A stretch of 64,000 bases of DNA, taken from assembly GCF_964204645.1 (NCBI RefSeq), contig NC_134027.1:9474485-9538484 (forward strand), in the 5' to 3' direction. This DNA comes from Tubulanus polymorphus (taxonomy: Eukaryota; Nemertea; Palaeonemertea; Tubulaniformes; Tubulanidae). Under the pieces are notes generated by a model that did not search any database, was not told the origin of the DNA, and worked only from the letters and a program-made list of their open reading frames with translations. Below, piece by piece: positions 21,601 to 50,293 of the stretch. Positions within the stretch are counted from its first letter, which is position 1; each line of letters opens with the position of its first letter. The position numbers and the translations under genes are program-made.

Positions 21601-24600
21601 AAAAATAATTACACTTCTGAATATTGGCATTCATTTTGTACCAAGTTTATGTAATAACTCTTATTCTATTTTTGATAAATATGTGCGCTACATCATCAAT
21701 ATATCGGGGCTAGACTGGTTGGCGTTCAATTCTACTATCGATATACCAGTATTCCAATCCAAAATAACTTTCTTGATCCTAAATATTATATAATTATGAT
21801 TCATATTATATTATCTATTGTCAACAATAGTAAGCAATTATATACGTTATTTTTCAAGGTGTCAATTAACTTTTGAGTCATCGATATCAATAAGAGGAAA
21901 ATATTTCTACCTTTCCTGCCTTCAGCGCTGAGATGATTAAGTCCGATACTCGATAAGAACTGCGATTTCTCGATGAATTCCGCTTCAGAGCACGGTTTGT
22001 CCGCCAGCTTCGGCGTACGAGATGGAATGTGGAGCGGCTGTTTATTTTCGACGGTATCCTTAGTTGAAACTAGTTGGACGGGACTGACACTACCCTCGCG
22101 ATACAGGCGTCGTCGTTTACGCGTCTGCTCGTAGCAAATCGTGCGCTTACGTCGTTTCGTCACCAATCCGAGATATCTCATGTGACGGCGTTTCTCGGTG
22201 GAGGCGTCCGCCGACGACGGCAGCTGCGTCGATATCATGCTCAGTTTGTGGTTGCGTCGCGATTCCGCCTCGATCAGATCGTCCTCGAAATCCGAGTCGC
22301 TGTAATAGCTGCCGTCTTGACGAGCCGTCGAAATGCGTTCTTCCAAGATGTCCAGTTTGCTCCTTATCGTAACACGCGAGTCGAGACTCTTGAAGAATGA
22401 AATGTCTTTGAAATGATCGTGTTCGTGGCCGACGGATGTCGTGCCGAGCCCAGCGAACTGCAACAAGAACTCTTTCGCGCTCGGCAAAAAGTGGTTATGG
22501 TCGATATGACTTTTGTCATTCGAATTGGATAGAGTCGGCTTACAAATACCGCTGCCCGTCGGTTCCACCACCGATGATAAAGTATTCATATTATTTTCAT
22601 TCTTTTTCGAATCGTGAAGATCAACGGCGGGATGCCTCAGATGGCTGCTGCTAGCCATCAAATCTCGTTCACTCGTAGATGAAGGAATTCTCTCATTAGC
22701 CGTTGTAGCGTGTCGTTCTGCCTTGAGACTTGTACTTTGTTCGTAGCCGTTCATAAGTTTATTGCTCGTCGTCGGGGGTCGCTGTATCGCCTCGACTGTT
22801 TGCGTAATTCTCGCCGATGGTTCACCGATGGTAGGCGGTGCCTTGCTCTGGCTGCCGAGTTGTACGGGTTGTTCATGGTGGCTTCGCTTATCCAATCTCA
22901 AACTATGGTCGTATTGCGATCTTAGCTCGCTGTCCCTTCCAACAGACGCTTCCCAATTTGTCTGCATAAATAATAGATAAGAAAATATTCATTTTTGTAT
23001 TAAGGGACATTGATATATGGTACAGCCTGCAAGTAATTCAACGTAAACACATCAAGCATTTGTCAGGTTGTAGCATCTTCATTTTCAATAAAACGAAATA
23101 GAAACACATCAAACTAGTTACTATTGTATGTATCTCTATGAGAGCTGCAAAACACGTCTTAGCAATATTTTTACAAAGAAATTTCGAAAAAGTGTATTCA
23201 TGCCAAACGAAAATGAATTACAGCATTTTGAACGATATAAAGCCAAACGCAAACAAAAACTTAGTTAAGTTACTTTTAGGCTGTCCTGTAGTGTCATATT
23301 GCTTCGTTAAGGTTTGAAGCTTAAAAAATCGAACAAAATTGTAGCTAAGTGATCATTTCAGAGAATTTGAAAAGATGTCTCCAGTGATTACTATCCATTT
23401 GAAGCTATCGAGACACATCAAACCACAAAGAAGAAACCATCAGTAGCCTGTTCAACCATCCATTGAGACAATTACACACAAAGAATACATGAAAAATCCA
23501 TGAAAATAGAGAAATTTCATTTCATACCTGCATACTGGATGATAATCGATCATCCTTGTGAACATGTAGATTGAGAGGAGCTGTCTGCTGTGCAAGGTCA
23601 TCGATTCTACGGCTGCGTGAAGGTGAAGAATGGTATTTATCGGAACCGTGTGAATATCTATCTTCTGAGGGTCTCACGTGACTGTAATTCGGGTGTCCTG
23701 GAGAAATATACCGTAAGACATGTTAGTGACACTTAAGACATGCGGCAGGCTGCAAATCTGCCACCAAAATTCCGTACGTAAAATTCATTACAATGGTAAA
23801 ATTCATGGAACCTTGGAGGTTTTCGAGTTGACCGAGTGTAAATGACTCCTGACCAAAAGCAGGGAAACCACTTTCATTTGACTTTTGTTTTGTTTTTTTC
23901 TTTTTCTTGACTATTCCCTGAAGTGCACGTTGACTTGCTAAGAATCCAATCAATTTGCACAGTCAAATACGTAAAACATAGACAAAAACTGTTTGATTTT
24001 ACGCACGATCTAAAAATCTCAACAAATTTCCCTGATTTGTAACTTTTTTTTACCAAATTCCCTGACTTTTTCAAAAGAAAAGAAATTTCCCTGACTTTTC
24101 CCTGATTTCCCGTTAAGTGGCCACCCTGAAAAGTATAGCAGCTTTGTAAGTGTCACGAACGAACTAAATTGCACAATATTTACCACTATCTCTGGCTGAA
24201 TATGTTTCACGTTGATGATGATGTTTCAACGTCTGGCTGTCTATTCTCATCTGCTCTTCTTGCTGACACTTCAGTCGTTCGCGATCTCGTAGGCGCTGAC
24301 GTTCGAATTCGGCTTCCTGCTGATCGCGTTGGTGATCGCGTATGCGTTCCTGTTCGCGTTCGCTTGCTCGTTCTTGTTCTCGACGTAATTCCGTCTCTAA
24401 CTTTTGCCTGCGATAGAATACCCAGACAGTTTCATGGAAATGGATTAAAACGATGGAACTCAACAAAAATATATCAAGAAAGGGGTGCGGGCAATCTACC
24501 CATATGTTTCGTGAATACAATCTTTGATGACTGGTAGACAGATTACTTTTCATCTCAGTATTCAGCGTTCATAAGCAAAACCCACATTTGAAGATTTAAC

Positions 24601-27600
24601 AAGTTTTTACTCATGTTAAATTTTCCCTTTGACGCAGAAGTTTAGTCAAACCTTTTAACTGTCAGAATAAATTGTGGGTTTTGCTCATTTGGTCATCAAC
24701 TGCGGGTTTTGCTTATCAACAATCTTTGATATACCACGATTAATCCAAGAAAGTCGGACCTTTTGGGCGATACATTTAAATTCGAAGCCTTCTCCAGACC
24801 CAGTCAAAAATCTGCAATTATTGTCCTTATATTTTGTGAAATATTGCAAATTCAAATAATACCTTTCAGCGAGGGCATTTGGAGGAGATTTCCGATCAGC
24901 TGCAGTATCGCTTGGCGACAATAAAGGAAAATGGTGCTGACGGAATAAATCATGGGGATACTGTCCGCCTTGCAGCATCGGCGTCAACGCATGATGCGGC
25001 AGCAATCCCGGGTGGGGATAAGGCAGAAACCCAGGCTGTAACATGCGGTACCTCTCCAGTAATAAAGGATCGTCGAATCTGGAAAACAGAAAATTACAAG
25101 GATAGGAAACTACTTAGTGGCCACTTTTCGTCCATTTACAAATACCCTGGACCCGGTTCGACAGTTCTTGATTAAATCTGACTCAGAGTTAGTTTTTAAC
25201 TCAGAGTCAATTTTAACTTTGAGTTAGGGAATTCAACTCTGAGTTAAAAGTTAATCAAGAACTGTGAAACCAGGTCGTGAGTTTCCTCTGATTTTTCCAT
25301 GTGATTACATAAAATTCCCTGATGGAATCAGAGAAATTTCTAGGTTTAGAAAGTTACAATTCATTCATTTTTCGTTGAATCATGAACTGATGAAAAACAC
25401 GTGCTTAATGATGAAAAACACGTGAAAACACATGAAAAACACGTGGGCCGCAACTACGTCACAGCCGAGAGAAAAGCGTCAGCTACGTGGAGAAAATGGC
25501 GGCGGCCAGTCACTTTACAAAACCCTCTTTTTTGGATAAAGTATTAGATGAAATGTTTTTCTGCTGTTTTGAAAATGTATTTATAAAGGTTTCTAACACA
25601 TCTAGATACAAAAAAATTTTCACTACAGTTCCCCTTTAATAACAATATCCAAATTCCCCGAGTTTTCCCTGACTTTTCTGATTCACTGAGCTTTCCAGGT
25701 ATTCCAGGCCAGTAGCCACCCCAATTTTTCACCCAGTATTTCTTACCTGAATGCCGGGTGTGGAAAAGCGGCTGGCGGCAAGAACGCGTGGTGGTACGCT
25801 GCATACGCCGGATCTAGGAATGGCGGTGGTAGGGCGGCACGAACTTCATCACCTGGACGGTACGGCTGAAATCCTCGGGAATGTTCGAGTAGACCGAGTT
25901 TAACGGCGCGGTGGTCCTCCGCGGCAGCGGCGGCGGCCGCCGCAGCCGATCGTCGGTCGCGCTCATGCGACAACGACACCGGCGGCAGATAGTGAGAATC
26001 GTGTTTTAACGACGAGAGCGGTTCGACCGATGATGACGTGGAACTGTGTCCGGAATTGGGACGGTCTATGAGCTACAGACAGAAAAAAAATTAAGATTGA
26101 GAAACCCTTAAAATAAGCAAAATCATGACCAGCTGTATGATGTTTACTCTAGCATCTGAAATTGTTTATTTTCAACTATTATCATTATTACTATTATCAT
26201 TATTATCATTATGTATTATGACATATTTTAACCACTTATCAAGAAACTTTTTTTCAAGGGGCCTGAACATCCTAGTGAATTGTACAGCCTTTATGGTTCT
26301 GTTCAGGCCCCTGTCTTCAATCTACTAATTCTGTACGTTCTATGTATTCCTTTTGTAATTTTGTATTCCTTTTGGTGGATGATGAAACATATATCATATA
26401 TCATATTATATGATCATTTTAGGCGAAGGACAAAAATCAGCTAAGAATTGTGGAACTGGATCCAAAATTATACACTACAATCATAAGCTTATTCCCTCGT
26501 CAGATATGATACACATAAATGAGACATAAAGTTTGACTGACAGCAACTACAGCCATTTTATATGAATTTAACTCCGGGATCTGGTCCCGGATAACGGACA
26601 TTTCTTCTTTCTTTCAAAATGTTTTTTCTTTTACCTTGCGCTCCTCGTGAGACATTAAACTCTTCGACTGACTGGATAACGTAGGCGCGATGGTCCCGAC
26701 AGGCGGCGAAGAGTTCACAGCAGAGGACGACGTCTGCTGTTGTTGATTGTAGATCAGAGGAGGCGGGGGTCCCGGTCTTTTCTTCGGCGTCAACGAATGC
26801 GGACTAGTATTCGATGAGACAGGCGATATCTGCATTTGGTCGCGGACGACATCTGAAAAAGAGAGCATTCCGGTGAAAAACCTGTCCATCCATTCAACCA
26901 TACACATTTTTTGCATCCGCAAAATTGTTCACATGGAACAGTTATCTTACCGAAGAAGGGTATACGAGCTTAGGTATACAGGTATTCAATTCAGCCTGGA
27001 AAAAGTGTTCAAACAGGGTCCCTAAAGATCCTTCATTCCTGGATACGAGGCGTTTTCGAGGAGTTTTAAAGGAGAACATTTGAAGGAAGTATCTGCATCA
27101 CTTTCATATCCCATTTACTCTTCCTAAATCAATACTGTTTATCTCGGTAAACAATTAATTTTGGTTTTTTGGAAGCATTTACTATCCTTTACACTACTAA
27201 ACTCAGCTTTTAATTCGATAACTGCCTAATTGGTTAATAAAGAAAGAATCCCGGTCCCAACTTAACTAATTTAGGCGTAGTCTACTACTGTACAACTACA
27301 AACATTTCAAATAGCCTATTTTTTTCAAAATTGAAGGAGTTTTGGGCATTTTGCTCAAATTAAAGGAGTTTCAAGCACCTTTAAAAGCTTTTTCAGTTTA
27401 GCAGGAGTTTTAAAGGAATCAAGGAGTCGTGGGGACCTTGTAAACATTTACGATGACTTCATAACCGGGATTTGTAAAATTTGAAAGGATTCAATGACTC
27501 GAACTTCCAGTGAGGTAAAAAAAGCTATCGTTGAAAAACGTATCATACAAACCATTAGGATCAGAAGCTTGTTTGGCGAGTTTTCTCAAAGCGGCTGCGA

Positions 27601-30600
27601 AGCTCGACGCGCGCGTCGCGCTGATTGCATTGTTGCTGTTCATGCCGCTGTTGCTCGGCGAAACCTGGCTGAGCGGCGGCACCGTGGCGGTAGTTCGGCT
27701 GATCTTCGACGAATTATTCACCATACCCGCGAGAGGGGGCGGCTTATAGCCGTGCGACTGCCCTGTAAAACACCGACAAAATTCATCCATTAGAATACCG
27801 GGTAAAAAGCTGATTTTCAACAAAACCCCTTATCAGGGCCTTATAGTAGAAATAGTTTAACAAAATGAAAAAAAAATGTTCAATTAAATAGTTACATCTC
27901 TTAGAATATTCATACGAAAAGTGAACCCAAAAATCAAATACGCTCTCCAATCTAACCTGACAACATATAGAAACTTGAGATTTATCCAAGCCATTCATAC
28001 AAGAAAATCCTTTCTGAAATAGTCGGTTCATGTCAATGTGCTTTAGATTCATCCTTGGATTTATCTGAGCCATTCACACAACAGAATCGTTTCTGAAATA
28101 GTCAGTTGTGCTTTAGAAGCCATTCATACAACACAGAATCCTTTCTGAAATAGTCACGTCATGCCAATGTGCTTAGATTCGTCCTTGGATTTATCTGAGC
28201 CATTCACACAATGGAATCGTTTCTGAAATAGCCGCTTCATGGAAATGTGCTCTAGTTCGAGGAATATTGCTAATAGTCGGATAATTAGATTTAGTTTAAG
28301 GTAGGGGCACACGAGCGTATTTTTTCACCCGATCGCGGCAAATTTATAAATCGCCCGAAAAATTCGCTCGTGTGGCCACTCACGGCGACGACGATTTCGT
28401 CGGCCGACTCGATCGCCCGGTGAATCGCCCGTATCAAACATGTTTGATATTTTCGGCCGATTATTTACGCCGGCGATCGGATCGCCCGCAAATTCGCTCG
28501 TCTGCCCGCACTCGGCGAATTTCGCTGAGTGATCCATTTTTATCAACCAATAGGATGCATTGTTGATATCATGTGATTCGTTAACTCTCTCCCTCTTAGT
28601 GCCAGTCGCTGACCGAATTTCGGTTTGATCGCTATGTGTGCCCGCTCGTATCGGGCGTATAATTTCGTCGGCGAATTCGCTGGCGAATTTAATCGTCGCG
28701 ATCGGGCGAAAAAATACGCTCGTGTGTCCCTAGCTTTACATCGCCAATGTTGAGTATGCATGCTATCGGGGTTTAGAACAGAGTATTCAATAGTATGAAC
28801 AACAAAAACAACTTACTCTATACCACCTAACTTTATACAACCTATCTATTTATAAGCAAATACTTTCCCTGAACTTTTAACCTTAAACTACACATCAATA
28901 CAGATCCATATTTTCAACTAAAGCTTTCGACAGCATAGAACTCTATTTTTATGGTTCAAGAAAGCAATAGATTTATAGATTTTTTCAGACGTATCACCCT
29001 AGACCCCCTTATAGAAATGCACCTGTCATGAAATGGTGGTTATCGCGCATCAACTACGTAGGCTTTGCATTGAATATCAGACGCATCGAAATGTGAAGTG
29101 GAAACACGTAAGGGGTGCATTCAGCCCCCTGATATTTCAAAAGGAGAAAATGTTGAAAGTTACGTTACTAACTAGCATCCCTGACTGATCCAACATTGAG
29201 AAACAGTAACTTACAAGGTAAAGATGTCATTGTGTTTACTGTGAAACCGAACGCCAGGTAGAGAAACGATGAGCTCGGTTTGAGAGTCAGCTACACAAGT
29301 CGACCAGTAGTAAATATTACAACCGAACAGCAACAACCGGTTGAAGTAATGATAACCGCCTACAACGATCCCCCTCTAAACGCACGCAGAACACAGCGAT
29401 AAAATACATATAGACCGGCATCGATGATAATAACATTTCAACAATAACAACAAAACAACATCAGCAGCAGCAGCAACAACAATCACACATAGTATCCATC
29501 CATGATTGATATAGCACAGTACTATGTAGTGTTGGCAGTAGTGCATGTAGTGTAGTTGTAGGCCTACTCTCCTCCACGCAGGCGCTCTCTCGCTAAATAA
29601 CAAAGAAACTGATGCTACACATTAGGCACATCTGCTCAGCACTCAGCAGTACAGCCGTCAGTCGTCTCACGCTGCTGCAATGCTGCTGCGACCACAGCGT
29701 GGCTATTGATTGCAGCGCAGATGCCACACTGTGTGGCAGCACTGTGATGGAAAGAGGGATCAAGAGGAAAAGACAGTGGTGGATCCAGGCTAGGGGGTGT
29801 TCTTGGGGGGTCTGGACCCCCCCAAAAAAATGTTGAGGTCCCTTACAATTCATCCTCCAAAAATCAAAATTAAGACTGAGCAACTGAAAAACACTTTGTG
29901 GTTGTGGCAATTAGCTGTTTTACCAATTCTGGGTGATCTATATGATTGGGAGAGTAGATATTGAGGAGAAAAAATTGAAAGGAAGGACAATCTTGAAGAG
30001 AAAATGAGAAAGGGCAGAAGGCATAAGTATGACGACTACGCGTTACGAATACCTCGGGTGGTGACGTAGAAATTTCAAGCGCAAGACAATACACGTTCAT
30101 CCTACTTCAAACGATTGAATGTGTCTTTGAAACCGGAGATTTCAATCGGCGGGTGCTCGATCATACGCGGCGATACGACGCTAAATCCAGAGGAAATCGG
30201 GAAAGGGATTAACGCGCTAAGATTAAAACCCATTTTCGGACTGAAAACAGCGTTCTAATCGTTCGATTTTCTTGTCATGTTTATAGCGATAAAAATACTT
30301 TCGCAGAATCATCAGCCAGGAGTTGGATAGACGTGGAAGGAATAGTGTGGTCTTCGCCGATGTGGCTGAGAGCAAAAGGGAAGCGCGTCGACATTACGCG
30401 GAGACATGTATCATTAGCGTGACACTTACGACTGCACGCAATTCGTAATAAATTTGATACCATGATTCCGTGAATAGTGGCAAATTATGACAGCCATCGA
30501 TTACAACGGTTTATAACCTACACACACTACACGATAAAACTGCTCTATAATCGATGACTACGATCAAATTCATACAGACAGACGCACACAAACACACACT

Positions 30601-33600
30601 AACACACGTACAACGCCAGTCAGTCATTCGAAATTGTTCCCGAAAACTGTAATAGTAGAGAGTAGCCACACTCTGACGTGAAGAATATATACCGTAACAA
30701 GACTTAACACAACAGACGACATGTCAGGTTAACGATGATCTCTAATCTACGACATTGTGGCTGCTGAGCTGCTGAAGTAGCAAGGCTTTCGATCCCCACA
30801 GACAATTTAAGCTCTACATTGGTGTAATCTTCAATTTTTCACATCAGCTCAAAATATATTCCAAAGCAATTATCAGCATTGATAGAATATTAATATCCAT
30901 GCCCTGGTAGAGGGTAGAAGTCGTTTTACAAGGGTCAGCTCAGAGGGGTGGACGTAAAAATGAAAGGGGTGGCTGGCCCTCTAAACCGTGATGTGGAGAA
31001 CACTGCCAATGAGAGTTTGAAACATTGTGTCTTTTGATATTAATTTTTGATGAATAAAATTCGCTTACAATCTTTTAAATTTTGTGTAAAGTGGGTTTTA
31101 ACCTCAATAGGTTGGGCTAATATCGCAGATTTCGAGGATTTCTAGGTTGTGTGGACGAAACTGTGAAACATGAGCTAGAAAACGAGTTGCCTTAACTCAG
31201 CGTAATCTAATATTTTGGGACAGGGGAACTTTGACTTGAACTTGACGACTGCGATAATTTTCCGTAAACATGATAAGAATTTTCCATTCATCGAACAGAA
31301 CGTCGTTAAATGAACTTTAACCTGTCGACTTAAAAAGAACGTTGTAGTACTCCGTGAAGAGGTTTTCCATTTTCCTCTGCGAATGAACTTCACTAATTCG
31401 AACTGATAATCGAGTAACCCCCCATCGGCGCGCTTCCGAAAGGATGAGGCTTCTTTCGTGGTCTTCTCAAAGTTTCGAGATTTCTCCTTCTAGGCAATCA
31501 ATTCGATGAAATACAAATGAGAAATTTAAACAAATGAAATGATGAACACAATCTTGAAATCTTATGACAGATATTTAACTCATTCAAAACAGTTATCGAA
31601 CCCTATATAGACTATTGATCAAATCAAAGTGATGATTACGCAACGGGTCGGACATATCGAAATTCAAGGTCAGGCCAAAAATTGATACTTTGTTCCTTGC
31701 TTAGCGTTGGCCGACCGACCCTGTGCATTATTTTTTTTTTAAATTCATGATCAAGCAAGCCATAACAGATCTGGCAGTTATATAAATGAACTGATTGAAA
31801 ATTTTATTGCAGTTTACAAAATGACCCTGCCGATTAGGAAAAACAAGGTACCATCTCATTTCAGCCTTAATCGAAAAGTTATGAAAAAGAAAATATTTTC
31901 ACTATCTGGATTTCGGATCGTACCGATTGAATCCCTCCTCAAAACGCTGATGTAGGCGATACATACGACCGCAGATAAAACGAAATCGATATTTCAACCG
32001 TATTGATTCACTACTCACTACGGTTACCGCAGCGATTGTATTTATTAAAGTGTATTAAGTTGATATCGAATGATTAATGGCTGCATGTGTAACACCTGTG
32101 CAACAGCGCGCGGGCGCGCAGGGAAACAATACAATACGTAAACTATATGAGCACATATATATGCATAACGCGGCGAAAATACGAAAAAATCTTAACAAAA
32201 CAGCGCAATCAAATATTCATTGTATTTCATATACGTCAGTAGTAATATCGCTATGCGACCTAAAACGGCTTTATGCGTGGTCCGCGCTCCGCGCGAGAGA
32301 GACAGAGAGGGAGGGATATCGGCGAAATGAATCTTACGCAGAATTGAAAATCAATCCGTAAAAAGCCGGATGCGTAAACAGATCAAAATGTAAAACGCCG
32401 TTCCGCAAAAAGAGATGAACGATAGATACACTACGCGGTACGGTTTGTCTATATTTGACATCAGCCGAGTGGTTGCCCTCGCGAGATTTTTGTTTCCATG
32501 GCAGCACTCCCGATTAGCCTCTTGACACATGATGAAACACGCTGACGGAATGATCGCGCTCACTCACACGCGCGCGTCTAACATCGCTCTCGGGGACTAA
32601 TACACTTTACAAATACGTAAATGATTTTTTTTTCTATTTGCGTATGCGCTGTGACAATCGTGTTACTGATTTATTTACTCAAAATAAAAAATTTAAAAAA
32701 CGTGAACAACATAGGCAATGTTATTTGGAAACATGATTCTGTAGCGCGGATTTGATCAGCAGTCAGACCAGTTGCACAGTCATGACTTCGATCACTGACT
32801 TAGATTCAACCCGTCCCTGAAGAAATTCAAAATCATTGGGGCAACCATTCCAACTGTATCCCCACAATAATCATTCATTTATCCTGTCAACGTCCTCGCT
32901 TGACAGTGTCCGATTGCGTTCCGCTGCTCACACCGACACAAACCCTGGCCGCAGTTCGTTCATTGGTCTAATACACCGCCCAAGATTTCTTGGGCCGACA
33001 GGTTGCTGCTCAGTGGCCACCAGTCTAAGTATTAAGCAAATCAAATGTAGTGTTTTTTCAATAGCAGATTCACTCTTATCAATACACCTCAATGCATCTG
33101 ATTGGCTAGATATATAGACTGGTGGCCGCTGAGTGATCAAGATTTTTTGGGCCGACATGTTGTCGTTCAGTGGCCACCAGTCTAGGTATTAAGCAAATGA
33201 GATGCATTGGAAATGCGGCCAGGGTTTCGGCACCGGCTTCGGCAGAAGGCAATCAGACCCAGGCAAGCGAGGATGCCTCTGAAGGGAAAGGAATAGTCTG
33301 ATCGACATAAAGACAACACCCCGATAAAATCTACAACTAACGTAAGGATAACTTTTGATTTGTGAGTTTCTTGTGATATCGGTGATCACAACTAAATGAT
33401 AATCACCCTTCTGAAGTTCATATCCATACAATGTTCGTGGAAATATTCCATGGTTCTAAAACGTAGTCTATGGTTTTCAGTAATTAGAACGAATCGCACT
33501 GCTTTTCAATGAGATAATGAGGTAACCGTTCTAATCAGACCCTGTTGACATACATCGTCTATTGGACCATGGACTCGAAAGAGTGCGCAATCGGACCTAG

Positions 33601-34988
33601 GTCTAAGTCCTGCAATGCCTAATAGTTACACAGTTATTGATTTGTCAGGCATTGTCTCATACAGAGAATTCGAATGATAGGCATTTAATGCAATACCAGT
33701 CTCGCAAATCACCTTTAAACGAAGTCAAGGTCAAAGTAGACCCCGTATCTCATTTTTCCCCATCCGAAACATGGATACATTCTTTTTCGATTTTCACGCA
33801 TATTTGCTGCGTAATTGTAATTTTTTCTAACAGTATGGCGCAGTGTTGTGAACATGATATTGGATACGCGAATAAAAATATGCATATACATAGACGAATA
33901 CATTTAAATCGCAAATGATGGTAATGAACGCGACCGACCGACATGTCGCTGAAAGCCTCGAGTATATATCAAATTCGATATTGACTGCAATCGTTCTCGT
34001 ATCGAATATCAAAATGTGTGTTGCAAATTGAAGGACGCTTCCATCAATGGACGAATATTAAAAAGCAGTAAAATGTTCCGTCGGTTATCAAATCCATGGG
34101 AATCGGCCGGTTTTAAAGGTTAACGAATCCAGCTTAGAACAGCGTTCACAATGTATACGTCGCTTTTTGCGGAAATATCTACATTCTTTTTTTGACGCCG
34201 TTAAAACCGTTAGAATATCACTTCAATTCATTGATACCTAGTATGCGTTATACAAGGGTTCAGTGTGAGTTGATGTGCACTACGTCATTAATATTGGCGT
34301 TTCAAAATAACAATTATGATTGTGAATTTGGGCATTCATTTTGTAATTGAATATATATCATAAGTCTTATCTTTTATTCGATAAATTTTGATCATCATTT
34401 TGAGAGGATGTGCACTATGTCATCAATATATCGGGGGCTAGACGGCTGCAATTGAATTATCGATATATTCAAATCCAAAATAACTGTATCAATCCTTGGA
34501 ATTATACAATTTATATTATATTGTAATAATAATATTATACTGTTATATTATATTCAACTTTTCAAAATTTTCTTCAACTGTTTAGCCTGAAATAGCTATA
34601 ATTCCTAGATCGCAATGCGGTGTCGTGTGCCCTTATTTAGACATATTCTTCTTTCGTTGTCGAGGAATCAGTCACTTCCAATATGACTCAATTGAGACGA
34701 AGCAATTTAGTCACAAAAGAAATTTCGAATGTCCCCCTAGTTCATTTCCATCCGTCGCTGTCAAAGATGATACTTTATTTACATATAGGCCTAAGAGACA
34801 CTTTCCTTTCGCAAAATACGACGCCTTTTAAGCTTTTGACAAATTAGGCCTGTGGTGAAATCACTTTTCAAGTTTCCGCCTGATGTTTGAGACTTGTCTA
34901 GATTTGTAAAAGATTACGCTAGTAAAAGTTTATCTGGTAATTATGTTACGCAAGTGAAACATTTTTATCGATTTTAAAAAAGAACTAG

Positions 34989-35080
<92 letters not shown>

Positions 35081-36581
35081 GATTTACTAAAAGGTGGGCA
35101 AGCGTGCAATGACTTCCTTTTCGGATTCAATGAATATCTTAAGACATTTAACGAATTCAAATGATTCCAGTTAACGAAATACATGAAATGATAATTTTCG
35201 GATACGTATTATTGAGGTTATTTTAAAAATACAGTCTGGCATGCCATCTAACGGTATAATCGTAGATTAGCCCGGGCGTCGAGGGTTAAAATCACTTCAT
35301 TTCAAGCATACGGAGAACGATAATGAAACGAATGATTGAATCGAAGCTCACGATGATGAGCGATGAAATTTCATTTTCCACTCGCTCTTCGATACTTCAA
35401 CGATACCGCCTCGTCGAGTTTACCAAATGTGAAATAATCAGCTCGGGGGAGGGGGTGGGGGCTTGCGAATATTAAACTAGCAGGACTTTCAATTCTATAC
35501 GCAGGTCCGCCAATCTCTGGAAGTGCTATCAGTAACCAAATTGAAATTTTTATCAGTAATACTTCTTGAAATATTAAAGAAAATGTTCTCAGTAATCAAT
35601 AGTAGGATCTTCGGTAACATCTTTCCTTATATTTGCGTCAAACGAATCAATTCAGCATTTCTCGTCATAGAAAAGTAACAATTACTGAAAATCAGCAACA
35701 GTTGGCAGCTATACGTACATACAAGTCGCAAAAATAGCATTCAGCATTTATCCGTGGGTTGGTTTCACGGACGGGAGTATCAAATTCATCGCTAGGGATC
35801 GACTACTCGCTGATCGTCGACTATATCATAACCGTAAAATGAAAAACCATGAAAATAATGGATACACTTTTTTTTGCCCAGGGTTCAGCTTCGCGAAACG
35901 CTATAATCAAGTCGTCGAAAACGCGAAAGGTTGTCATTAGTAACTGATCATAATTTTGTTTGCGCCACCGGCGGCCCCTAGGGTTCACGCGTAACCCAGT
36001 CTACGAAACTGGCACTCGCGACGAACACCTCCCTGGTATTATAACAACCACAGGGTTAAGTAGCTAAACCTGAGGCGCCTATACACAACTGGCGGTTAGA
36101 AATTCATTTTCTTAAAAAACATTCCCCGGGAATGAATTAATACCGGAGTGCCGGTTTTATAGACCACTATTATCTAAACCCGGCCGCTAAATGATTGAAA
36201 ATGACCTTAGTTAACCCACGGGTTCAAGATAATACCCCAGTCAGTATCTTATCCATAAACCCAAGCCCATAATATTCAACTTCTCCCGCCCAACCTTTTT
36301 TTCAAAATCCAAATTACTATCGTTACTATCATCGATGCGCAAAAGTATTTCATCAAAAATGATGACTTCACAAATTTGGAATAACGTTATCATTGTTACA
36401 TTTAATGCCAGCAGCCGCCGCCGATCATTAGGCAAATAAAAAGCGCACTGCTTTAAAGATGACGCGGCGGTGATAGCTGTGGTAGTGTTCGGGTGCGTTT
36501 AAACACTTTACCTGGATATTGATAGATGGGAGGCATTGTATACGGGCTCATAAAAAATCCATTAAATCCATTGAGCGCCAT
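15608..36581 (-). CDS. GSE1: GSE1 (genetic suppressor element 1) orthologue, coiled-coil co-repressor protein
   Basis: Thirteen coding exons, 5' to 3': 36512..36581, 27553..27762, 26635..26852, 25747..26072, 24863..25078, 24184..24407, 23528..23697, 21911..22961, 21288..21401, 20457..20690, 19438..20223, 17976..18079 and 15608..15700. All are GT-AG and phase-consistent, giving 1271 aa (human about 1217). Family landmarks in order: RTTATVPPLS and SSFAAALRKLAKQA near residues 50-90; a polyalanine tract, then FLDPAYAAYHH and FPHPAFR near 245-275; a Glu/Arg-rich helix at 347-415; basic KRRKRTICYEQTRKRRR and LNHLSAEGRK in the DUF3736 region (about 740-828); EFAQEFHESVLKTT near 920; WPGIEVLMDAYQRHMEG near 1195; and a C-terminal coiled coil from 1207 to the end. 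Human GSE1 is a subunit of LSD1/CoREST/HDAC co-repressor complexes in the nucleus. ATG 36581 is the first ATG in its open frame. Introns carry several MITEs. Confidence 0.93.
17050..17211. mobile_element. MITE, family D, complete copy
   Basis: Ends AGGGGGTCATTCATTGATTA (then TGTACGCAT) and the complement ATGCGTACG ... TGAATGATCCCT. It contains a G-rich GGGGAGGGGAGAGGGGTCAG and TTGCGTACAGAGGGGGTTG, as at 4674 in reverse. Confidence 0.8.
19087..19263. mobile_element. pogo/Tigger-like MITE, family E (CAGTGAAACCTCGTTATAACGA)
   Basis: Inverted ends TACAGTGAAACCTCGTTATA and TTCGTTATAACACAGTTCCACTGTA, flanked by TA dinucleotides as expected for Tc1/mariner/pogo-type insertion. It has no coding capacity. 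Further copies are at 47946, 50770 and 51029. Confidence 0.75.
20741..20990. repeat. Family F repeat (GGGTCCCTAC element), degenerate, GSE1 intron
   Basis: Shares GCATCACTTTCAT, TAGATCGGTACCATTTATCTTG and AACCAAATTTCTATCGTTTGC words, in the same order, with the copies at 27015 and 41719. Confidence 0.6.
21491..21777. repeat. Dispersed repeat, family G, copy 1 (GSE1 intron)
   Basis: About 290 bases aligned in order and orientation with 34193-34510: GATGCTGTCAAAACC, GATACCTAGTACGC, GATGTACACTACGTCATCAA, TTGGCATTCATTTTGTA, ATCAATATATCGGGGCTAGA and AATCCAAAATAACT. It has no clear inverted ends and no coding capacity. Confidence 0.7.
24005..24135. repeat. Family H dispersed repeat, GSE1 intron
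   Basis: Words TTCCCTGATTTGTAAC, TTCCCTGACTTTTCCCTGAT and the end AAGTGGCCACCCTGAAAAG. Confidence 0.6.
25146..25276. mobile_element. Foldback element with CCTGGACCCGGTT ends, intron of GSE1
   Basis: Arms CCTGGACCCGGTTCGACAGT and ACTGTGAAACCAGGTC enclose the matching pair AGTTCTTGATTAA / TTAATCAAGAACT. The interior repeats ACTCAGAGTTA in both orientations. The terminal bases recall family A but the interior differs. A lone similar end is at about 60297. Confidence 0.75.
25600..25735. repeat. Family H dispersed repeat, GSE1 intron
   Basis: AATTCCCCGAGTTTTCCCTG, CACTGAGCTTTCCAGG and the end CCAGGCCAGTAGCCACCCC, closely matching 121-170. Confidence 0.6.
27015..27438. mobile_element. Family F element (GGGTCCCTAC ends), GSE1 intron
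   Basis: Begins AGGGTCCCTAAAGATCCTTC and ends GTCGTGGGGACCTT, giving short imperfect inverted ends. The interior has GGAGTTTTAAAGGAGAA, GCATCACTTTCAT and GTTTATCTCGGTAAAC. This is the longest copy, about 420 bases. Confidence 0.7.
27975..28258. repeat. Short tandem array, about four degenerate units of 70-90 bases
   Basis: The words GCCATTCA(C/T)ACAA, GAATC(G/C)TTTCTGAAATAG and ATGTGCTTTAGATTC recur four times in register. Units 2 and 4 share TTGGATTTATCTGAGCCATTCACACAA, suggesting a two-unit higher-order repeat. It lies right next to the MITE at 28302. Confidence 0.75.
28302..28732. mobile_element. MITE with central palindrome, family C
   Basis: Long inverted ends: TAGGGGCACACGAGCGTATT at the left, continuing TTTTCACCCGATCGCG, with the near-perfect complement at the right ending CGTGTGTCCCTA. 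The centre at 28432-28449 is the same palindrome TATCAAACATGTTTGATA as in the element at 7109. Located in the first GSE1 intron. Confidence 0.85.
29774..29830. repeat. Single end of the CAGTGGCGGATCCAGG-type element
   Basis: CAGTGGTGGATCCAGGCTAG followed by G- and C-runs, like the left end of the element at 54209. No matching right end was found nearby. Confidence 0.5.
32930..33250. repeat. Foldback region with nested direct repeats
   Basis: TTGGGCCGACAGGTTGCTGC... and TTGGGCCGACATGTTGTCGT... are direct repeats about 145 bases apart, each followed by TCAGTGGCCACCAGTCTA and TATTAAGCAAAT. Between them is the inverse ATAGACTGGTGGCCGCTGAG. Outer AACCCTGGCCGCA and TGCGGCCAGGGTTT are inverted. Confidence 0.65.
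34193..34510. repeat. Dispersed repeat, family G, copy 2 (first GSE1 intron)
   Basis: Second copy of the repeat at 21491, with TTGACGCCGTTAAAACC, GATACCTAGTATGCG, GATGTGCACTACGTCATTAA, ATCAATATATCGGGGGCTAG and AATCCAAAATAACTG. Confidence 0.7.
34990..35077. repeat. (AT)n microsatellite, about 88 bases
   Basis: Uninterrupted AT dinucleotide repeat. The Ile-Tyr run translated here is an artefact. Confidence 0.95.
36148..36244. mobile_element. Foldback/MITE, family A, diverged copy
   Basis: Arms with GCCGGTTTTATAGACCACTATTATCT and its diverged complement surround an AATGATTGAAAATGA centre. It lies in the first GSE1 intron, just beyond the first exon. Confidence 0.6.
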
Positions 36582-38350
36582 TGGTAGTAATAAAAGCAAA
36601 CGACTGTACCGCTTCGTCGCTGCTGCTGCTACTGTAGCTGCTGCTGCTGCTGCAGCGATGATGATGATGACAGAAACTGAAACGTCAACGACTGACACCG
36701 AGAACCGTTTTCATTCAAAACATCCGCCCGTATGTACGTAATTTTATCAGCGTCGATGCACACACACTCGCTAAGATCCTTTAACGTTTCGAAAGCATTA
36801 TACTATCTACGTATCATATGTCGCGCATATACAGTGTATTCCAGCGACACGGATTGACTAGCAGCCGCTGCTGCGGTGACAGCGGCTGACACACAAAAAT
36901 ATATTCAACGTCTGCCGACGATGAGTCCTCCTACCATATGTAGCAGCAGCGGCGGCGGTAGCGGAGGGTGCAGCTACGAGAGAGCATCGATCTTCCGTCG
37001 GAAAATTGATATAATTGTAGTACACGCCTAAAAAAAGCAGTCGCGATATACACACACACACACAACACTTCAAGCGTTTGCGGTTGTCGACAAAAACAAC
37101 AACGCCGCGGTTGCTGGAATCATTACGCTCTCCATTTATATTACAGACGCGATTATTATTTATTTACGCCGATGATCATCATCCGTATACTACTACTACT
37201 GAGTCAGCGCGCGCATAGTAGAGCTACTATTACTACTACGGAGAGCGAGGTGTATCATCCGCGGTGGCTATAAACAGATTATTTGATACAAACGGAGCGG
37301 TAGCTCGGTAGCTAGCTCGCTCAGCTAGCGCATCGTTTTTCGAGGTAACTCCCGACTGGCTTCGAATGTACGTACTAGAAAACAGCGCCGTCCTCCGCGC
37401 ATCACCAGAGAGAGAGATAGAGAGCGAGATATGATTTATCAGTCTAGCGCGGCGACTTTGACACCGAGAGCTGTTGATTGCGTCGTTGTCGTTGTCGTAT
37501 TCCTGGATTAGATCTTGACGGCAGTTGTTGTCGTGTAGCTAGTCCGCGCGTTACAGCCGCCGCAAACAAGCGCGCACACGCACATTCCGAACACCCGCGC
37601 GCGCGCACACGCTGCTGCAGGTAAAATTAAATCAGCCCTCTATCAATCGACCAGAGTTGTAGCAGCTGTTGTATTCGTAAATATGTTCAGTCTCTCTCGG
37701 GAAAGAGAGGTTCGCACGTGGCGCGAGCGACAAAATCAATCGAAAACGAGAAAACACGATCGAGGAGAAAGACGATCAATCTATACGCGCACGACAGCGG
37801 CGACGGTGTCGCGAAGTTTCATCGCGGTACGACTGAGTTGATACTACTACACGGCAAAACACACAACCTCGCTACAGCAGCAGCAGCATCGTGTAGGTAC
37901 CGGTACTGCAGTGACAATGATGACGATCATCGCTCATATCGATACCAGGCTTAATTACGCCGAGAAGAACCGAGAACAGCAGTTCAGCGTAAACAGGATA
38001 TAATTGATTCGTCGTTGTCGTTTGATTCAAAAGTCGAATTCGCACTCCGCTCGTACGGAGAATGGAGAACGACTGCGTGTGAATATACGCACACCACCCA
38101 CGTCACACACGAGATGGAATCACGCTAATTACCTCAATCCGACGTTAATTAATTAAAAAGGCCCGATGAGAAGAACGAGCGAGTGAGCGAGCGAACGAAC
38201 GAGATTTTCTACCAAGAATTCGAACGGTGAAATTCCGCGAAACTGAATATGATGATTAACTGAGATTTCGAACCGTCAGCGCGTAAAGGACCGGCGCTAA
38301 GGTGACGTTTTTAAATAAATGATACGGGAAGAGAGCGATTCATTCCACAT
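36582..38350 (-). promoter_or_regulatory. Putative promoter / 5'-UTR region upstream of the short GSE1 first exon
   Basis: This stretch differs in composition from its surroundings. It is richer in CpG and G+C and holds many short simple repeats: CTG/CAG runs at 36620-36655 and 36940-36960, GAGA runs near 37407-37430 and 37700, and CA and CG runs near 37050 and 37565-37610. No coding exon is convincing. A CpG-rich stretch just upstream of the first ATG is typical of an invertebrate developmental-gene promoter. No TATA box or transcription start was identified, and a non-coding first exon is possible. Confidence 0.35.
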
Positions 38351-38784
38351 TCTGGATTCAGATCGCGACAAAAAACTATCCTGCACCTAAACAGGTGTCC
38401 AGGAACAGATTCCTTCTAATTGAAAGGGCTCAGTATTCATAGTTGTTCTCGTAATAGAAAAAAAAACCTCTTTACTTATTGTTGCTATATTGTCTTACTT
38501 CATTGAGCGCTTGCCGATTTAACGATATGATTCTATTACGTGTGACATGTTTACTAGCAGTAATGCGAATTCCCAACAATTCAAGTCATGCATGTGTCAC
38601 CATGCATTTGAATAAGATTACCCAAATTGGCCAATTTTCCATTTAGAAATAGTCGAATTCACTTTCCTAATGACCAGTCATGCTTATTTGATTTGAGTTC
38701 CATAATGTGGCATCACATAGTTATAGGCCGAAGATCCAAACTGGTTAATGGTGCGCAGTATATATCGGAAACGGGTGCTTATAG

Positions 38785-38805
38785 CAGTGGCGGATCCTAG
38801 GGCCA
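38785..38805. repeat. Single end of the CAGTGGCGGATCC-type element
   Basis: CAGTGGCGGATCCTAGGGCC resembles the terminal repeat at 54209. No right end was found. Confidence 0.4.
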
Positions 38806-39527
38806 ATTTTGAAAGATTTCCAAAAAGGCAATAGGCTATTAGGCGCATTCCCTCAGTGAAATACTCCTATTTGTTGTTATTGACAAAATGAAAAAGGGCA
38901 CTCAAAAAATATTTTGACGAACTTGTACAAGCCTCACACGTTGCCCTGAGTGATCCATCCTTGTATTGTAAGGCCTATGCAAGTACTTCAGCTCTTCGTG
39001 TTTCGAGAATTTGATCAGAGATTTCTACGCCGAGATCCGTCATACTGAAGAACTGCGCCACGAAATGTAATAAGATGACATCCATATGATAAGTGCAACA
39101 TAAGCTGTTACCTTATGATGCCCAGAGTAGATTCATGAAATGATTACATGTCAAGAATCTATCAAAACTTTTTTCAATTCATCCTTTCGTCTCAGAATTA
39201 ATCGCGCAATCAATTTATCCCACATCAACCATCTTTAACCGTAACATTGGTGTCATTGTGCGAAATCGTCAAGGAGAGACGACCACGGATCCGTGATAGC
39301 AGGAATCTTCAAGTTCAATTTATCGTCATTTAATTTTCAGTTTTGTGCCATTTTCAAATAACAAATGCTATCTTTTCATTTGCCGTTGTTGAAGTGTTCT
39401 ATGCTAAAAATGACCAAGTTGGTAAATATGTACTTGCGACACTCGTTCGAACGCCTTCCATTCATTTACACTTTTGGCAATCTCGAGTGAAAACCATGTT
39501 GGATACTAGTAACAGATAAGAACATCA

Positions 39528-39639
39528 GGACCCAGTTTTATAGACTGGTATTAACTTTAACCTGGGGGTTAACTCAATTCATTTTCAATTTAGTTAACCC
39601 CAGGTTAAAGTTAATACCAGTCTATAAAACCGGCTCCAA
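39528..39639. mobile_element. Foldback/MITE, family A
   Basis: Strong inverted repeat beginning GGACCCAGTTTTATAGACTG and ending with its near-complement CCAGTCTATAAAACCGGCTCC. The centre is TCAATTCATTTTCAATTTAG. Confidence 0.8.
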
Positions 39640-39680
39640 GTTTATTGATGATTATCATATTTCAAACACATTTCAAGATA

Positions 39681-39808
39681 TGGGGCCCAGGACCCAGTTT
39701 TACAGCCTGGTATTAACTTTAACTGGGGGGCTAACTCAATCCATTCTCAATTGAGCTAGCGCCTGGTTTAAAGTTAATATCAGTCCACAAAACCAGGCCC
39801 GGGCCCGG
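39681..39808. mobile_element. Foldback/MITE, family A, tandem neighbour
   Basis: A second, more diverged copy only about 40 bases after the copy at 39528, in the same arrangement (GGACCCAGTTTTACAGCCTGG ... CCACAAAACCAGGCCC). Confidence 0.75.
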
Positions 39809-41466
39809 GATCATACAAAAATTTGTCATAACTCCCAATTAAATATCAATTCATCAAAACGTAGACGGTAAATAGTGGCGCGTTTGAATCGCGTGTATAC
39901 AACACATTTCAACTCGTACGATAAATGCTTTCAACGCGCTAACGATCCACAATTTATGTTAAGTTGATTCTAAGTCGTACTGTAAATCAGTATTAACTCA
40001 TACAGAGGGGGCTTTAAAAAGAATTCTGCGAAAGGCCTACCGATATTGTACGTATGCGCATATCAAATAAACATATAGCCTAGTTATGTTAGATATTTAG
40101 TTGCCAGTGTACAGTTCCAGAATCGAGACCTTTTAGCACTAGAGACAAATCATAGCTCATTTCACGAATTCTATAATCAAATCAAACACACCCATAGATA
40201 ATTAAGTAGAAGCCTACAGTTGATGACCAAACCATTTATTTAAACTCCATCATCAGAGAACCCAACTCTCTCGGAGTTTAGTCGAAACGCTGAAACGTGT
40301 CAGAAAATAAACGGCTTAATTATCATTTGACATTATTATTATGCAGGTTTTTACTTATTAACTCTGAATGCCGTAATATCGGTCGGCCAGACACACCCAT
40401 GCCTCTCCGGAACAAACATGATAGTTCGACTTACATTTAAACCAACAATAAAACCATTCAAATTGGAAACGAAAATCTCTGAAGGCATGGAAATCTAACA
40501 GGCAAAATAGCACTGGCGGCAACAATACCGTTCATCAATGAGCAATGATTAATCTATAGAACCACAGTCTCAGCACTCACATCAATTGCTTATATCATTT
40601 ACATTAAAATCGTCTGAATGTACTCAAAAGTGATTTTCTAGGAGGTTGCCTCTCCAGAGGTGGAGATTTTCCAGCGGTAATAATTCAATGAACAACTTAA
40701 GTTATTACACTTTTTTTGTAAATGCGCAATTACCATCTAACATGTTTTCTTATTAAGGGCCGATCTTGATACAACCAAGTTTGGTATGTTGGAGTTCGGA
40801 TAGATGATGGTCTAACGCATGAAATTTTACAACTTTATAGAATACATAAGTAATGATTGATATCAAACATTTTCCATAACGAAAAATCATTTTTATGCGG
40901 AATATTTGCCCGGAAAAATTGCTCATGTCGTAAGTTCCCAATTCTCTTTATTGCATCCACAGGATTCCCTCGAATTTTATTCCATTTGTATGACACATGG
41001 AAAATGGTGAAATCTAACTGATAGTGGCCAAATTCGGTATTATGGAAGACAACACAAAGAAATGAAGGCATTTTCCTATTTTTATGCCTTTTTTACCATT
41101 CGCTGTCATTCAGTGATTAAGAGGTAGCATGCATAACCGATTTTTGGGGATTCTATGAGTTGCGACGCGTTATAGCAGGCACCTAGACTGAATACAATCT
41201 TTACAATTATCTATAACATGAAGCACCTCGAACATTAACACAGCATTGAGCTATGCTTATATAAACAAAATAAATTGCTAGTAATCATCATGATCATTCA
41301 TAAGATTCCTCCTTGTTCCAAAATGGCGCAATCAAAAAATGCGAGAAACTGCTGAAAATGGCACGTGGATGAGATTAATCCAAAAATCTCGGTTTGTTTT
41401 ACATTTAAACACTCATAGGTCGCCAGCAACCATTAAGTAATGATTTCAAATTCAATGTACTCTTAC

Positions 41467-44284
41467 CTGCTGGTTGATTCCCGACGCCTTCGGGATAAGA
41501 TTTCTCATCCACAGTAGCTATTCTAGCAACAGATCTGTCGTCTTTTAATGATGAACTGCTCATCGGTTGGTCGTCAACCTGAAGAAATAAACAAGATTTG
41601 TCAACATCCTTACCCCCAAAATGATGTGATATAGCAATAGACCTCATGATAGTTTTATCATATTTGATTCAGGAGTCAGTTCATTTTTCACTCCAGTGAA
41701 ACACGCTTATAGGCTATAGGGTCCCTACAAATCAGTCATTCCTTGGATATAAGGAGTTTTAAAGGAGAAAATTTCAAATTTGGGGGACGCGTCTGCATCA
41801 TTTTCAGAACTCCTCCTAAATCGGTACAGTGTATCTTGGTAAACCTTTAATTCTGGGGTTTCGTAAGCAAATATTTATCCTAAACTGGGTTTCTAATTTG
41901 GTAATTGCTAATCGGGAAAAAACAAATCTTGGTCCCAACTGTACCAATTTAGGCATAGTTTACTGTACAACTACAAACTAGACAAAAATTTCTAAATGCC
42001 TATTACTCAAAATTAGATTCAGACCATAAAATGGAGTCTTTTTTCTCTCTTTCAAATGAATTAAGAAGACTTTATGGCAATCCTTCTCAATACAGTGTAA
42101 AATGGATATGAAAATGATGGTCTATTCAGACTGCACAGTTTCACTTGTATTAAGACCAAAGTGAAGTATGTCTTCATAAGATTAAGAGAAATATTCCCTA
42201 AACATCGATCCCAGACAAAAATAAATCGACTCTAGTTAAAAACGCAATATTTGTGCTAAAATCTAGTTTGATTATACCTTCTCAGTTTTGATTCCGTAAT
42301 GTTCTAAATACTTCTCTTTGCGAAGTTTCGGCGGCAGAACGACGTCGGTCGGAGTTTGCTGTGTCTCGTGCGTCGTCGACGTATTGTGACGCGATTTCAA
42401 CTTTTTCACGCAGATGACGCACACGACGACGATGATGCCGTCGTCCATGACGATTGCGCCGTCCGGCCGATTCAGCTCCTTCAGCTCGGGGTGGCGTTTC
42501 AGCGAGATCGCCTTCACGTTCTTGCGCGTTTCGATGCACGCGCACACGTAGCAGACGAACTCCGTCGTGTTGTACTGACGCAGCCAGCGATTATTGTCGC
42601 CGGGCTTCTTCGAGTTCTCGTACATGTGCCACTGCATAAGCAAACTGTGGTAGCAATAACGACAACACGACGCCGTACCCTGCGTCAAGATCGGCTCCGC
42701 GCCCGCCGCCGCCGACCGATTCACCAAGAACGGGAAAAACTGCTTCACCTCGGTCTGATATTCGGACTTCCCCTTTTCCGGATAAGCCGAGACGACGTGC
42801 AGCTTTTGCGCTTCGGTCTTCGTGCCGCAAACGAAGCAACAAGAGATCTTAACGCCTTTCACCTCGGCGCCGGACACAGACTTCTGCGTCGCCGCGTCGT
42901 TATCGTTATTATTCGCGTAGAAATTAAACGGACTCGCGATTGCTAGAAGGCCTTGATTCTGCTGCGCGGAAACGTTCGGCGACGGACTGCTGGATCCGAT
43001 ATGGATGTTCAACGGTTTTGTAACGTTGGCGTTGTCGGCGGCGACGTCGCTCGGTTTCATACGCGCTGCGTCGGAGGGTAGATTTCTATCTGACGATGCG
43101 CTATTCGGTAACGAGTACGTTCTCAGGTGTACGGGAATCGACGCGTCTTCGTTCGTGTGCCATTGGTGCTTCAACGAATTGTAGCACATACGACACGCCA
43201 TCACTCGCCCGTCACCATCCATTTGTCGCGCCTTCGACGGCGTTTTCAAATTGAATATAAATGGAAAATACATCGGATCCATGACGCCTTTATACGGCGG
43301 TTTTGCGTAAATGATTTTCAGCGAATCGCGGTGGTAGACCTGTCCGCACAAAAAGCACGCCTCTTCGATTCGTTTCACGTTACTCTGCAGCGGACTTTCG
43401 GTGCCTTTCAAAGGCGACGAAGCGATGACCGTTTGCGCATGCGTCGGCGCCGAAACATTTCCGACGTTGTAAATTCGGTTTTCTTCGTTCGTGCTGGTGA
43501 GTTCGTAAGCCTTCCACTGCGTCTGCAGCCCGTTCCAGCACGAGCCGCAAACTCTCGTCAGGCCTTGTTTACCGAGCGCCATCGCTCCGGTCGGCGGCTC
43601 GATTTTTTCCAAAAACGGGAAATATTTAACGGCGTCCGTTTGTTTACGGGAATAAACGAACTTCCCCGACGTCGACGGCGCCGTTTTTCCGCAAGTATAG
43701 CAAACCATCGTGCTAGCCGATTCTTCACTTGGCGCGATACCCGCTTCCGGGTAACCGTTTTGCGCGCTAGGTTTTGACGATTTCAAATTACCGGTAAGAT
43801 CCATCGCGCCCGAACTGTCGAAACTATCAGAGTTAACAGGCGCTGACTGCGACTGATTAGTAACGTAGCCGTCATCGCCGACCTCCGTTTTGTAGGTCAT
43901 CATGCCGGGCACCTGATTTGACCGTCCCTGGTCGTATTGGTTGTACGGCGACCGGTGGTGATGCAACCCGAATAGTAATGCGGCGTATTCACCTTGAGTA
44001 TTCATTTCGGCGCCGGTGTAAAGTCCATCGTCGGCGCGTTTTAACCAATATAAACGTTTTATTGGCGGCGTCTTAGTCCGTTCGAAACACTCCCACTGCT
44101 GGTTCAGAAAACTGAAACAGACCTTACACGACGGAATCAAGCCGCCGGGCCCCGGTTTTTGGCAGCCTTTCGGTGGATCATGGTGTTCGAGAAACGGAAA
44201 ATACGAACCCTTTTCGCGAGGTTTTATATGCAGAGTCGAGGTAGCCCCTAAGCTACCGCAAACAAAACACACGACTCTACTCAT
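41467..44284 (-). CDS. Protein with five repeated CxxC...CxxC (FPF/QW) modules; 3' end unresolved, possibly an alternative 5' part of GSE1
   Basis: Exon 42278..44284 (669 codons from ATG 44284) ends at GAGAAG/gtataa and joins in phase 0 to exon 41467..41578, which ends in phase 1 at a good donor (CAG/gtaaga). The long exon encodes four very similar modules and a fifth, shorter one: CxxC pairs at 6/9+53/56, 195/198+246/249, 310/313+364/367, 483/486+541/544 and 578/581+622/625. Modules 1-4 carry an aromatic FPF motif between the pairs (YFPFL in 1 and 2, YFPFI in 3, FFPFL in 4) and QW about seven residues after the last Cys. Module 1 continues into RLYWLKR. The pattern suggests four-Cys metal-binding folds, one zinc per module. 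Linkers are Ser/Asn/Pro-rich and disordered. I do not recognise the family by name. The phase match to the GSE1 exon at 27553..27762 suggests the two may be one gene. Antisense open frames over this exon are shadows caused by its high GC. Confidence 0.8.
41719..42012. mobile_element. Family F element (GGGTCCCTAC ends), right end missing
   Basis: Begins GGGTCCCTACAAATCAGTCA and follows the 27015 copy through AAGGAGTTTTAAAGGAGAAA and CTCCTAAATCGGTAC to GGCATAGTTTACTG. It sits in the intron between the two CxxC exons. Confidence 0.7.
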
Positions 44285-45859
44285 ACTGCATAGCAAATAC
44301 TGGCTTCAGCGCACGAGTAAGGCTGAATACTTGAAAGATTCGGTGGTCCCTTGTAGATATCATTTTGGTTTATCTGAAATACGTTAATAAAGTTGAATCA
44401 ATCACGGCTTTTAATCCACTAATACGTGTATTAGACTGAAATCTACTTTAATGCAAAATGCAAATGATATATACTGATGAATGTATGATAAGGCTTAGCA
44501 TCAGTGCTGTGGATCCCTAGCCTAAATATAATTAAAATCATAAAACATAGTCATAGGCAGTTTGCTGTAGGCCTAGGCCCTCTGTAATGTAGCCGTTTGT
44601 ATATTTACAATTACGTAATCATCACAGGAACTTTAGCGATAATTTATTACAAACATCTGATCCAGGGATAACCCTAGTTTGGATAACAGCCAATGTTACC
44701 ACTCTCGGCTACAATGGCTACATGGGCATAGGTAGTCCGGCATTGGGATGCCTAATTTAGGTTCATTCCACTACTGAATCAGTGACATCATAGGCCTAAT
44801 CATAAAATACACGAATACTCAATTTCATAGATTAGAATTGCTTTTCCACCTTTGTAAAGATCACTCAGTGTGACCCTTTATATCGTATTACAGTTAGCTA
44901 TCAGTTAATTAACCCCCACATTGTTACAATGTAATTAATAAGTGTTCCTTTTGCTATCAATCAGAGCCAAGTTTTTATCTTTTGTTTCTGACTGTTAACC
45001 AACACATAGCTGAGGCTATACCAGCTACTTAAGGGTCACACTAGAAACGTCGATCTACGAAAGAAATTGGGAAATATTCGGGCCGTTTTTCCATCGGTTC
45101 CAAAAAAGTTTTTTGACAGAAATTTTTAGAGGCAATTTAATTTAGGCCCGATATATGTGTCCTTTAAATTCAACATACCACATTGAATCGGTTCATTTTC
45201 ATCGTCAACATTACAGGGTTCATAACAACGCGTTTATATTAGCTGAGACCGGTTTTAACATGGTTTAAATCGTTGATTTGTCGTATTAGTCACATCAGAG
45301 GAAAACACAAAGGCTACTACAAATCAATTCAATCCAATCTTTATTTCAAATCGATCGATAATTCTAGAGTAGTCGTAAACATGCCGCGAGAGGCTCCGAA
45401 ATCTGAGTGGACTAAAACTAAAAATCGAGAGCGACATTAAAGAAATATTTTGGTATTTCTTATGTAATGAATGAGTTTTCGATCTTACGTAAGCACCACA
45501 ACGTTAGAACCCTACGGCCTAAGAAAAAAGAATTATATAGCCTGGTATCGCCCTGTGATCATGACTTGCATTTTTGGCACAAGAAAAAGCTTTGTTTTCC
45601 CCATCTAATAATAGACTAAAATGAATGAATAGTAACGTTAGAAATAGAAGCCACGACTCAATATCGAATTAAAACGTAACCTTTCGATTCAGTTCCTAAA
45701 TGGCCGAGACATAATATCGAAAATGCATTTGCACGTGACAAATGAATATTGACCAAAGTCCAAAGAATTATCAGGATTCGAACCTGCTTGATTCGCCAGT
45801 AACGACTACGATTGGATGAGCACTATCCAATCACGCGTTGCGTATGCCGGCACGGTGCG
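44285..45859. other. Divergent intergenic region between the CxxC gene and AHCY
   Basis: About 1.6 kb holding both 5' flanks. An intron acceptor (ctatgcag/T) lies immediately before ATG 44284, so a non-coding upstream exon of the CxxC gene may lie here. Antisense to AHCY, near 45780-45800, is a perfect tRNA-type T-arm (CAGGTTCGAATCCTG) without the rest of a tRNA. Confidence 0.45.

Positions 45860-45948: not shown

Positions 45949-50293
<4,345 letters not shown>

Follow-up and report, generated by a model that had tools for sequence, protein, structure and literature searches.

Splice-site anatomy points to a probable alternative 5′ end of GSE1 encoding CxxC modules in the nemertean Tubulanus polymorphus

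In the nemertean Tubulanus polymorphus, a large minus-strand exon encoding five CxxC...CxxC modules and a short spacer exon lie upstream of the gene GSE1, raising the question of whether they form a gene of their own or a part of GSE1. We analysed the locus in a 64,000-nucleotide stretch of contig NC_134027.1 (positions 9,474,485 to 9,538,484; G000:C3:9474485-9538484 in our genome set), hereafter the window, and searched the genome of 267.8 Mb in 77 contigs. From splice-site anatomy we infer that the CxxC-module exons are probably an alternative 5′ end of GSE1, spliced from 41466 to 27763. This join is favoured because sites absent from the training set score strongly and the phase is correct, and because no terminal exon scores near the GSE1 exon. 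The exon coordinates, phases and junction peptides given in an earlier note on this DNA all proved correct (44284-42278, 41578-41467, 36581-36512 and 27762; Table 1).

Splice sites were scored with matrices trained on GSE1 and on a divergent neighbouring gene, presumably AHCY (AHCY-like), which together supplied 17 donors and 17 acceptors; a prior based on consensus tables was added. The training sites were placed by eye with the known proteins as a guide, and one further donor string that was not found was omitted. Sites 27762, 27552 and 36511 belong to the training set; 41578, 41466 and 42277 lie outside it. Ranks refer to all GT (7,123) or AG (6,537) sites on both strands of the window, and the codon model was trained on exons of the AHCY-like gene and GSE1 only, the CxxC exon not being included. 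Consistent with the claim that exon 41467..41578 ends in phase 1 with a strong donor, 41466 (CAG|GTAAGA) ranks 6th among donors, followed by 36511 (43rd), 42277 (125th) and 27552 (293rd). Among acceptors, 27762 ranks 6th and 41578 ranks 8th.

The two sites bounding the spacer exon form the only acceptor and donor pair in the window, on either strand, in which each scores at least 12 and the two lie 30-400 bp apart, and only when entered in phase 0, the phase supplied by 42278, does the exon stay open. Comparable pairs were absent from 400,000 strand-bases in 20 other 10-kb stretches of the genome and from 2,000,000 bases of order-1 Markov sequence. Because this strong pair is unique in the window, open only in the matching phase and unparalleled in control sequence, we accept 41578-41467 as a real exon despite its small codon signal. 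The same pair bears on a reading in which the CxxC protein ends at a TAA (42274-42272) past donor 42278 or, with the intron retained, at 41407, giving a stand-alone protein of about 670-730 amino acids with the GSE1 join minor or absent. Donor 42277 (AAG|GTATAA) is the lowest of the three CxxC-side splice sites, and downstream lie ATTAAA (41851) and AATAAA (40981, 40952), the latter hexamer occurring at 0.84 per kb in the window. Such a protein would, however, leave the strong, phase-matched spacer exon unexplained, and donors similar to 42277 (AAG|GTATTA and AAG|GTAGAA) are among those placed in GSE1; we regard this outcome as quite improbable.

Beyond the spacer exon, 27762 tops the 640 AG sites from 41436 to 27701 with a score of 12.9, the next reaching 10.0 and 9.8, and it alone opens a well-supported coding exon, in line with the proposal that 27553..27762 is the next convincing exon. 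As an internal exon it scores 49.7 bits, with a codon part of 31.2 (27.4 when left out of codon training), against 19.6 bits for the best internal candidate not using this acceptor (phase 0) and 15.9 bits for the best such candidate in phase 1. A terminal exon for the CxxC side had been reported as missing, and the best of 82 phase-1 candidates with an acceptor of at least 4 reaches just 11.2 bits and two codons.

These scores also weigh on the possibility that the CxxC exons form a separate gene, divergent from the AHCY-like gene and closed by a short or non-coding-looking terminal exon between 41466 and 27763, with GSE1 starting only at 36581. Terminal exons can be short, a plausible proximal GSE1 start exon exists, and candidate acceptors are available at 40478 (score 7.0, 41 codons, AATAAA at 40240), 33278 (9.8, 7 codons) and 32816 (10.0, 2 codons). 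However, 40478 is the best acceptor in 41436-38500 at only that score, and its exon looks non-coding (codon log-likelihood ratio -17.4 bits), so that we regard it as an improbable terminal exon. Use of 32816 or 33278 would make the separate gene overlap GSE1 on the same strand, because both lie beyond the proposed GSE1 start. We consider a separate gene unlikely.

Several points limit the case for joining the CxxC exons to GSE1. Agreement in phase is weak evidence, 7 of the 12 placed GSE1 acceptors being phase 1; the 27762 acceptor and exon are themselves in the training set; and a terminal exon may fall below the length at which scoring works. The codon signal of the spacer exon is slight (+2.9 bits over 37 codons), and that of the proximal start exon is negative (-7.9 bits). 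The suggestion of the earlier note that the CxxC exons may be an alternative 5′ part of GSE1 is nevertheless partly supported, since the splice anatomy favours it over every alternative scored; the join itself is a prediction to which phase agreement adds little.

The proposed proximal start is a 70-nt exon, which we call the MALNG exon; it likewise ends in phase 1, as had been claimed. Five phase-1 ATG-to-donor candidates with a donor of at least 7 occur in the intron, three of them the MALNG exon or nested within it and the other two holding 3 and 4 codons. GC content is 0.47-0.52 in scanning windows at 36.5-38.25 kb, higher than in most neighbouring windows on both sides, and the CpG observed/expected ratio gave no clear promoter mark and is not distinctive at the proximal start. 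A longer MALNG exon from acceptor 36649 (score 6.6), which has phase 1 and keeps the frame open across MALNG, was set aside as weak and lying in a CAG-type repeat; a symmetric 1-1 exon 36512-36649 could enter the long form, making a third form. A start at 29249 (ATGACATCTTTACCTT|GTAAGT), noticed by eye, is not among the five candidates.

The identity of the downstream gene as GSE1 (genetic suppressor element 1, KIAA0182) is firm by sequence, on the strength of a DUF3736 match (PF12540) with an E value of 1.3e-16 and 61.3 bits against a cut-off of 22.6, spanning profile positions 5-141 of 142. Further likenesses are an ER-rich stretch, a coiled-coil-type end and SSFAAALRKLAKQA, all with counterparts in vertebrate GSE1; the last is a 19-residue motif in exon 27762-27553, found at one place in the genome and presumably conserved with vertebrates. 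The MALNG exon and eleven internal exons yield 1,239 codons without a stop, and the CxxC pair with the same exons yields 1,922, an openness that is partly by construction because the GSE1 exons were picked to stay in frame. Among phase-0 terminal candidates in 17960-9000, exon 15700 comes first (14.5 bits versus 7.2 for the next), and with it the models close at 1,269 and 1,952 amino acids with a single final stop each, near the approximately 1,271 and 1,950 put forward earlier. A PxDLS-type motif, DQPTDLS, occurs in minus-strand exon 19438-20244 and is presumably of the CtBP-binding kind.

The open frame 44305-42272 (minus strand) contains a protein, P0001, of 670 codons from the ATG, the last codon lying past the donor, and the exon scores +90 bits over 669 codons. 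A single-protein search, blind to distant copies, found P0001 at one place in the genome. Ten CxxC motifs begin at residues 6, 53, 195, 246, 310, 364, 483, 541, 578 and 622; in an alignment the four other modules are 29-34% identical to module 2, and C4, C7, P32, C55, C58 and L62 are invariant across all five. The sequence AMDLTGNL also occurs within this exon. Candidate donors for a 5′ leader are 45178 (7.8), 45783 (6.2) and 44849 (6.0), and 1,665 bp separate the CxxC start from the start of the divergent gene.

An AlphaFold model of module 2 as a monomer is confident (predicted local distance difference test score, pLDDT, 89.4). It has a C2C2 fold resembling a treble clef, and its best matches, which are weak, include insect ZAD domains; this suggests that the modules resemble the zinc-binding C2C2 treble-clef type. 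ZADs undergo antiparallel homodimerization, and their fold is known chiefly from insect C2H2 factors. We compared the modules with zf-AD (PF07776) and with the ZADs of Grauzone (1pzw), M1BP (7po9) and Pita (7pok). One study describes a ZAD as a globule round zinc with two invariant Cys pairs about 50 amino acids apart and a long C-terminal helix 2 (PMC5509000). All five modules have pairs at about this distance (Table 1), and the likeness may extend to the long helix that follows the second pair and to weak fold and profile similarity. The label 'zinc-type' used earlier agrees with the ten CxxC motifs and the confident model, from which metal binding is predicted.

Profile similarity stays below formal thresholds. 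The modules reach no Pfam cut-off: against the PF07776 gathering score of 28 bits, the best module attains 15.7 bits (E 0.019) and whole P0001 13 bits. At E≤10, zf-AD is found in two of the five modules, and zf-BED is matched by one module (E 0.012). Ten shuffles of module 2 with Cys fixed gave no zf-AD match, although one of them hit an unrelated family (E 0.011). In ZAD-ZNF proteins an N-terminal ZAD precedes a C2H2 cluster (PMC7655104); the C2H2 pattern is absent from the 1,952- and 1,269-residue models, and no C2H2 family was detected in P0001 or in the five GSE1 stretches scanned. Sequence searches of the PDB gave weak matches only (best E 0.56 for P0001 and 0.14 for the module profile), and NCBIfam gave none. 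BFVD held no match at E≤0.001; many named entries among the best 50 of 113 were phage HNH nucleases (best E 0.16). Viral contigs yielded no relatives and prokaryote genome contigs yielded 18 pattern matches, none confirmed, although neither collection is a fair test for an animal gene.

The genome has zf-AD sequences of its own, at no fewer than 50 places, 35 of them over the cut-off and most with near-equal scores. A dispersed sequence family carries the domain; in the copy scanned (L023:1495-3174), zf-AD (27.1 bits, just below the cut-off of 28) stands ahead of a transposase resembling that of P elements (TNP-like RNase H, E 2.1e-26). Comparison of the modules with the genome's own zf-AD sequence gave no BLASTP match, and hhalign returned a P-value of 0.09 and a probability of 0.6% with both Cys pairs in register.

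Table 1 Predicted exons, modules and leader intron of the locus (window positions)
Feature	Position	Strand	Details
Putative 5′ leader intron	44374..45178	minus	acceptor 44373 (score 8.5), best upstream donor 45178
Large coding exon, five CxxC...CxxC modules	44284-42278 (2,007 nt)	minus	ATG 44284, ends phase 0
Module 1	44039..44278	minus	CxxC pair spacing 47
Module 2	43451..43711	minus	spacing 51; modelled, pLDDT 89.4
Module 3	43109..43366	minus	spacing 54
Module 4	42563..42847	minus	spacing 58
Module 5, divergent	42365..42562	minus	spacing 44; retains both CxxC, lacks FPFL and QW
Second CxxC-side exon (spacer)	41467..41578 (112 nt)	minus	phase 0 in, phase 1 out; acceptor 12.1, donor 12.1
Alternative short first coding exon (MALNGFNGFFMSPYTMPPIYQYP)	36512..36581 (70 nt)	minus	phase 1 out; donor 36511 score 8.9
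GSE1 exon 2, shared junction exon, begins after TTTTACAG, holds SSFAAALRKLAKQA	27553..27762	minus	acceptor 12.9
GSE1 exon	26635..26852	minus	exon model
GSE1 exon	25747..26072	minus	exon model
GSE1 exon	24863..25078	minus	exon model
GSE1 exon, ER-rich	24211..24407	minus	exon model
GSE1 exon	23528..23697	minus	exon model
GSE1 exon with DUF3736	21911..22961	minus	PF12540 match
GSE1 exon	21288..21401	minus	exon model
GSE1 exon	20457..20690	minus	exon model
GSE1 exon	19438..20244	minus	exon model
GSE1 exon, coiled-coil type stretch by eye	17976..18079	minus	exon model
Probable GSE1 terminal exon	15608..15700	minus	30 aa then stop; closes frame

Within the GSE1 intron, 28298-28736 holds 40-nt inverted repeats, 93% complementary and 359 nt apart, resembling a miniature inverted-repeat transposable element, and 34990-35080 is a long TA dinucleotide run. 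Further inverted repeats lie at 39528-39637 and 39684-39806, and Rfam gave no match at gathering score in 27000-46000.

Under the favoured join, one minus-strand GSE1 gene would have two alternative 5′ ends meeting at common exon 2 (acceptor 27762): a distal end supplying five C2C2 treble-clef-type modules and a 37-codon spacer exon, for a protein of about 1,952 amino acids, and a proximal end supplying 23 residues, for one of about 1,269. Alternative-promoter isoforms of transcription regulators, differing in an N-terminal domain, likewise run from two starts into a common second exon; the optional part here would be a five-module array. Compared with vertebrate GSE1, the predicted long form has an extra N-terminal array, about 670 residues long, that carries the CxxC modules; no such array is known in described vertebrate GSE1, although no search of animal protein databases was made. 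No title on a long GSE1 with zinc modules appeared among the GSE1 literature matches listed, a set with subscription papers mostly outside its scope, so that absence is unproven.

In mammals, GSE1 is found in a complex with HDAC1/CoREST (PMC10681733) and is named as a subunit (PMC12143397). The GSE1 body that associates with this corepressor in mammals would be present in both predicted forms, and the distal form would gain an array of ZAD-like modules for protein interaction, possibly self-association. Choice of start would then determine if the modules are available for tethering or multimerizing the corepressor subunit. Tentatively, and as a possibility we rate below an even chance, GSE1 of this lineage, and perhaps already of ancestral spiralians or bilaterians, may be a two-form corepressor subunit in which a distal promoter adds the ZAD-like treble-clef array, coupling an oligomerizing zinc array directly to LSD1/HDAC1-CoREST. 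Among the subunits of a major corepressor complex, GSE1 is poorly understood; if the long form is real, its N-terminal array of interaction-type zinc modules would hint at how GSE1 is targeted or multimerized, and a fold resembling the ZAD, which typifies insect C2H2 factors, would stand in a different protein context.

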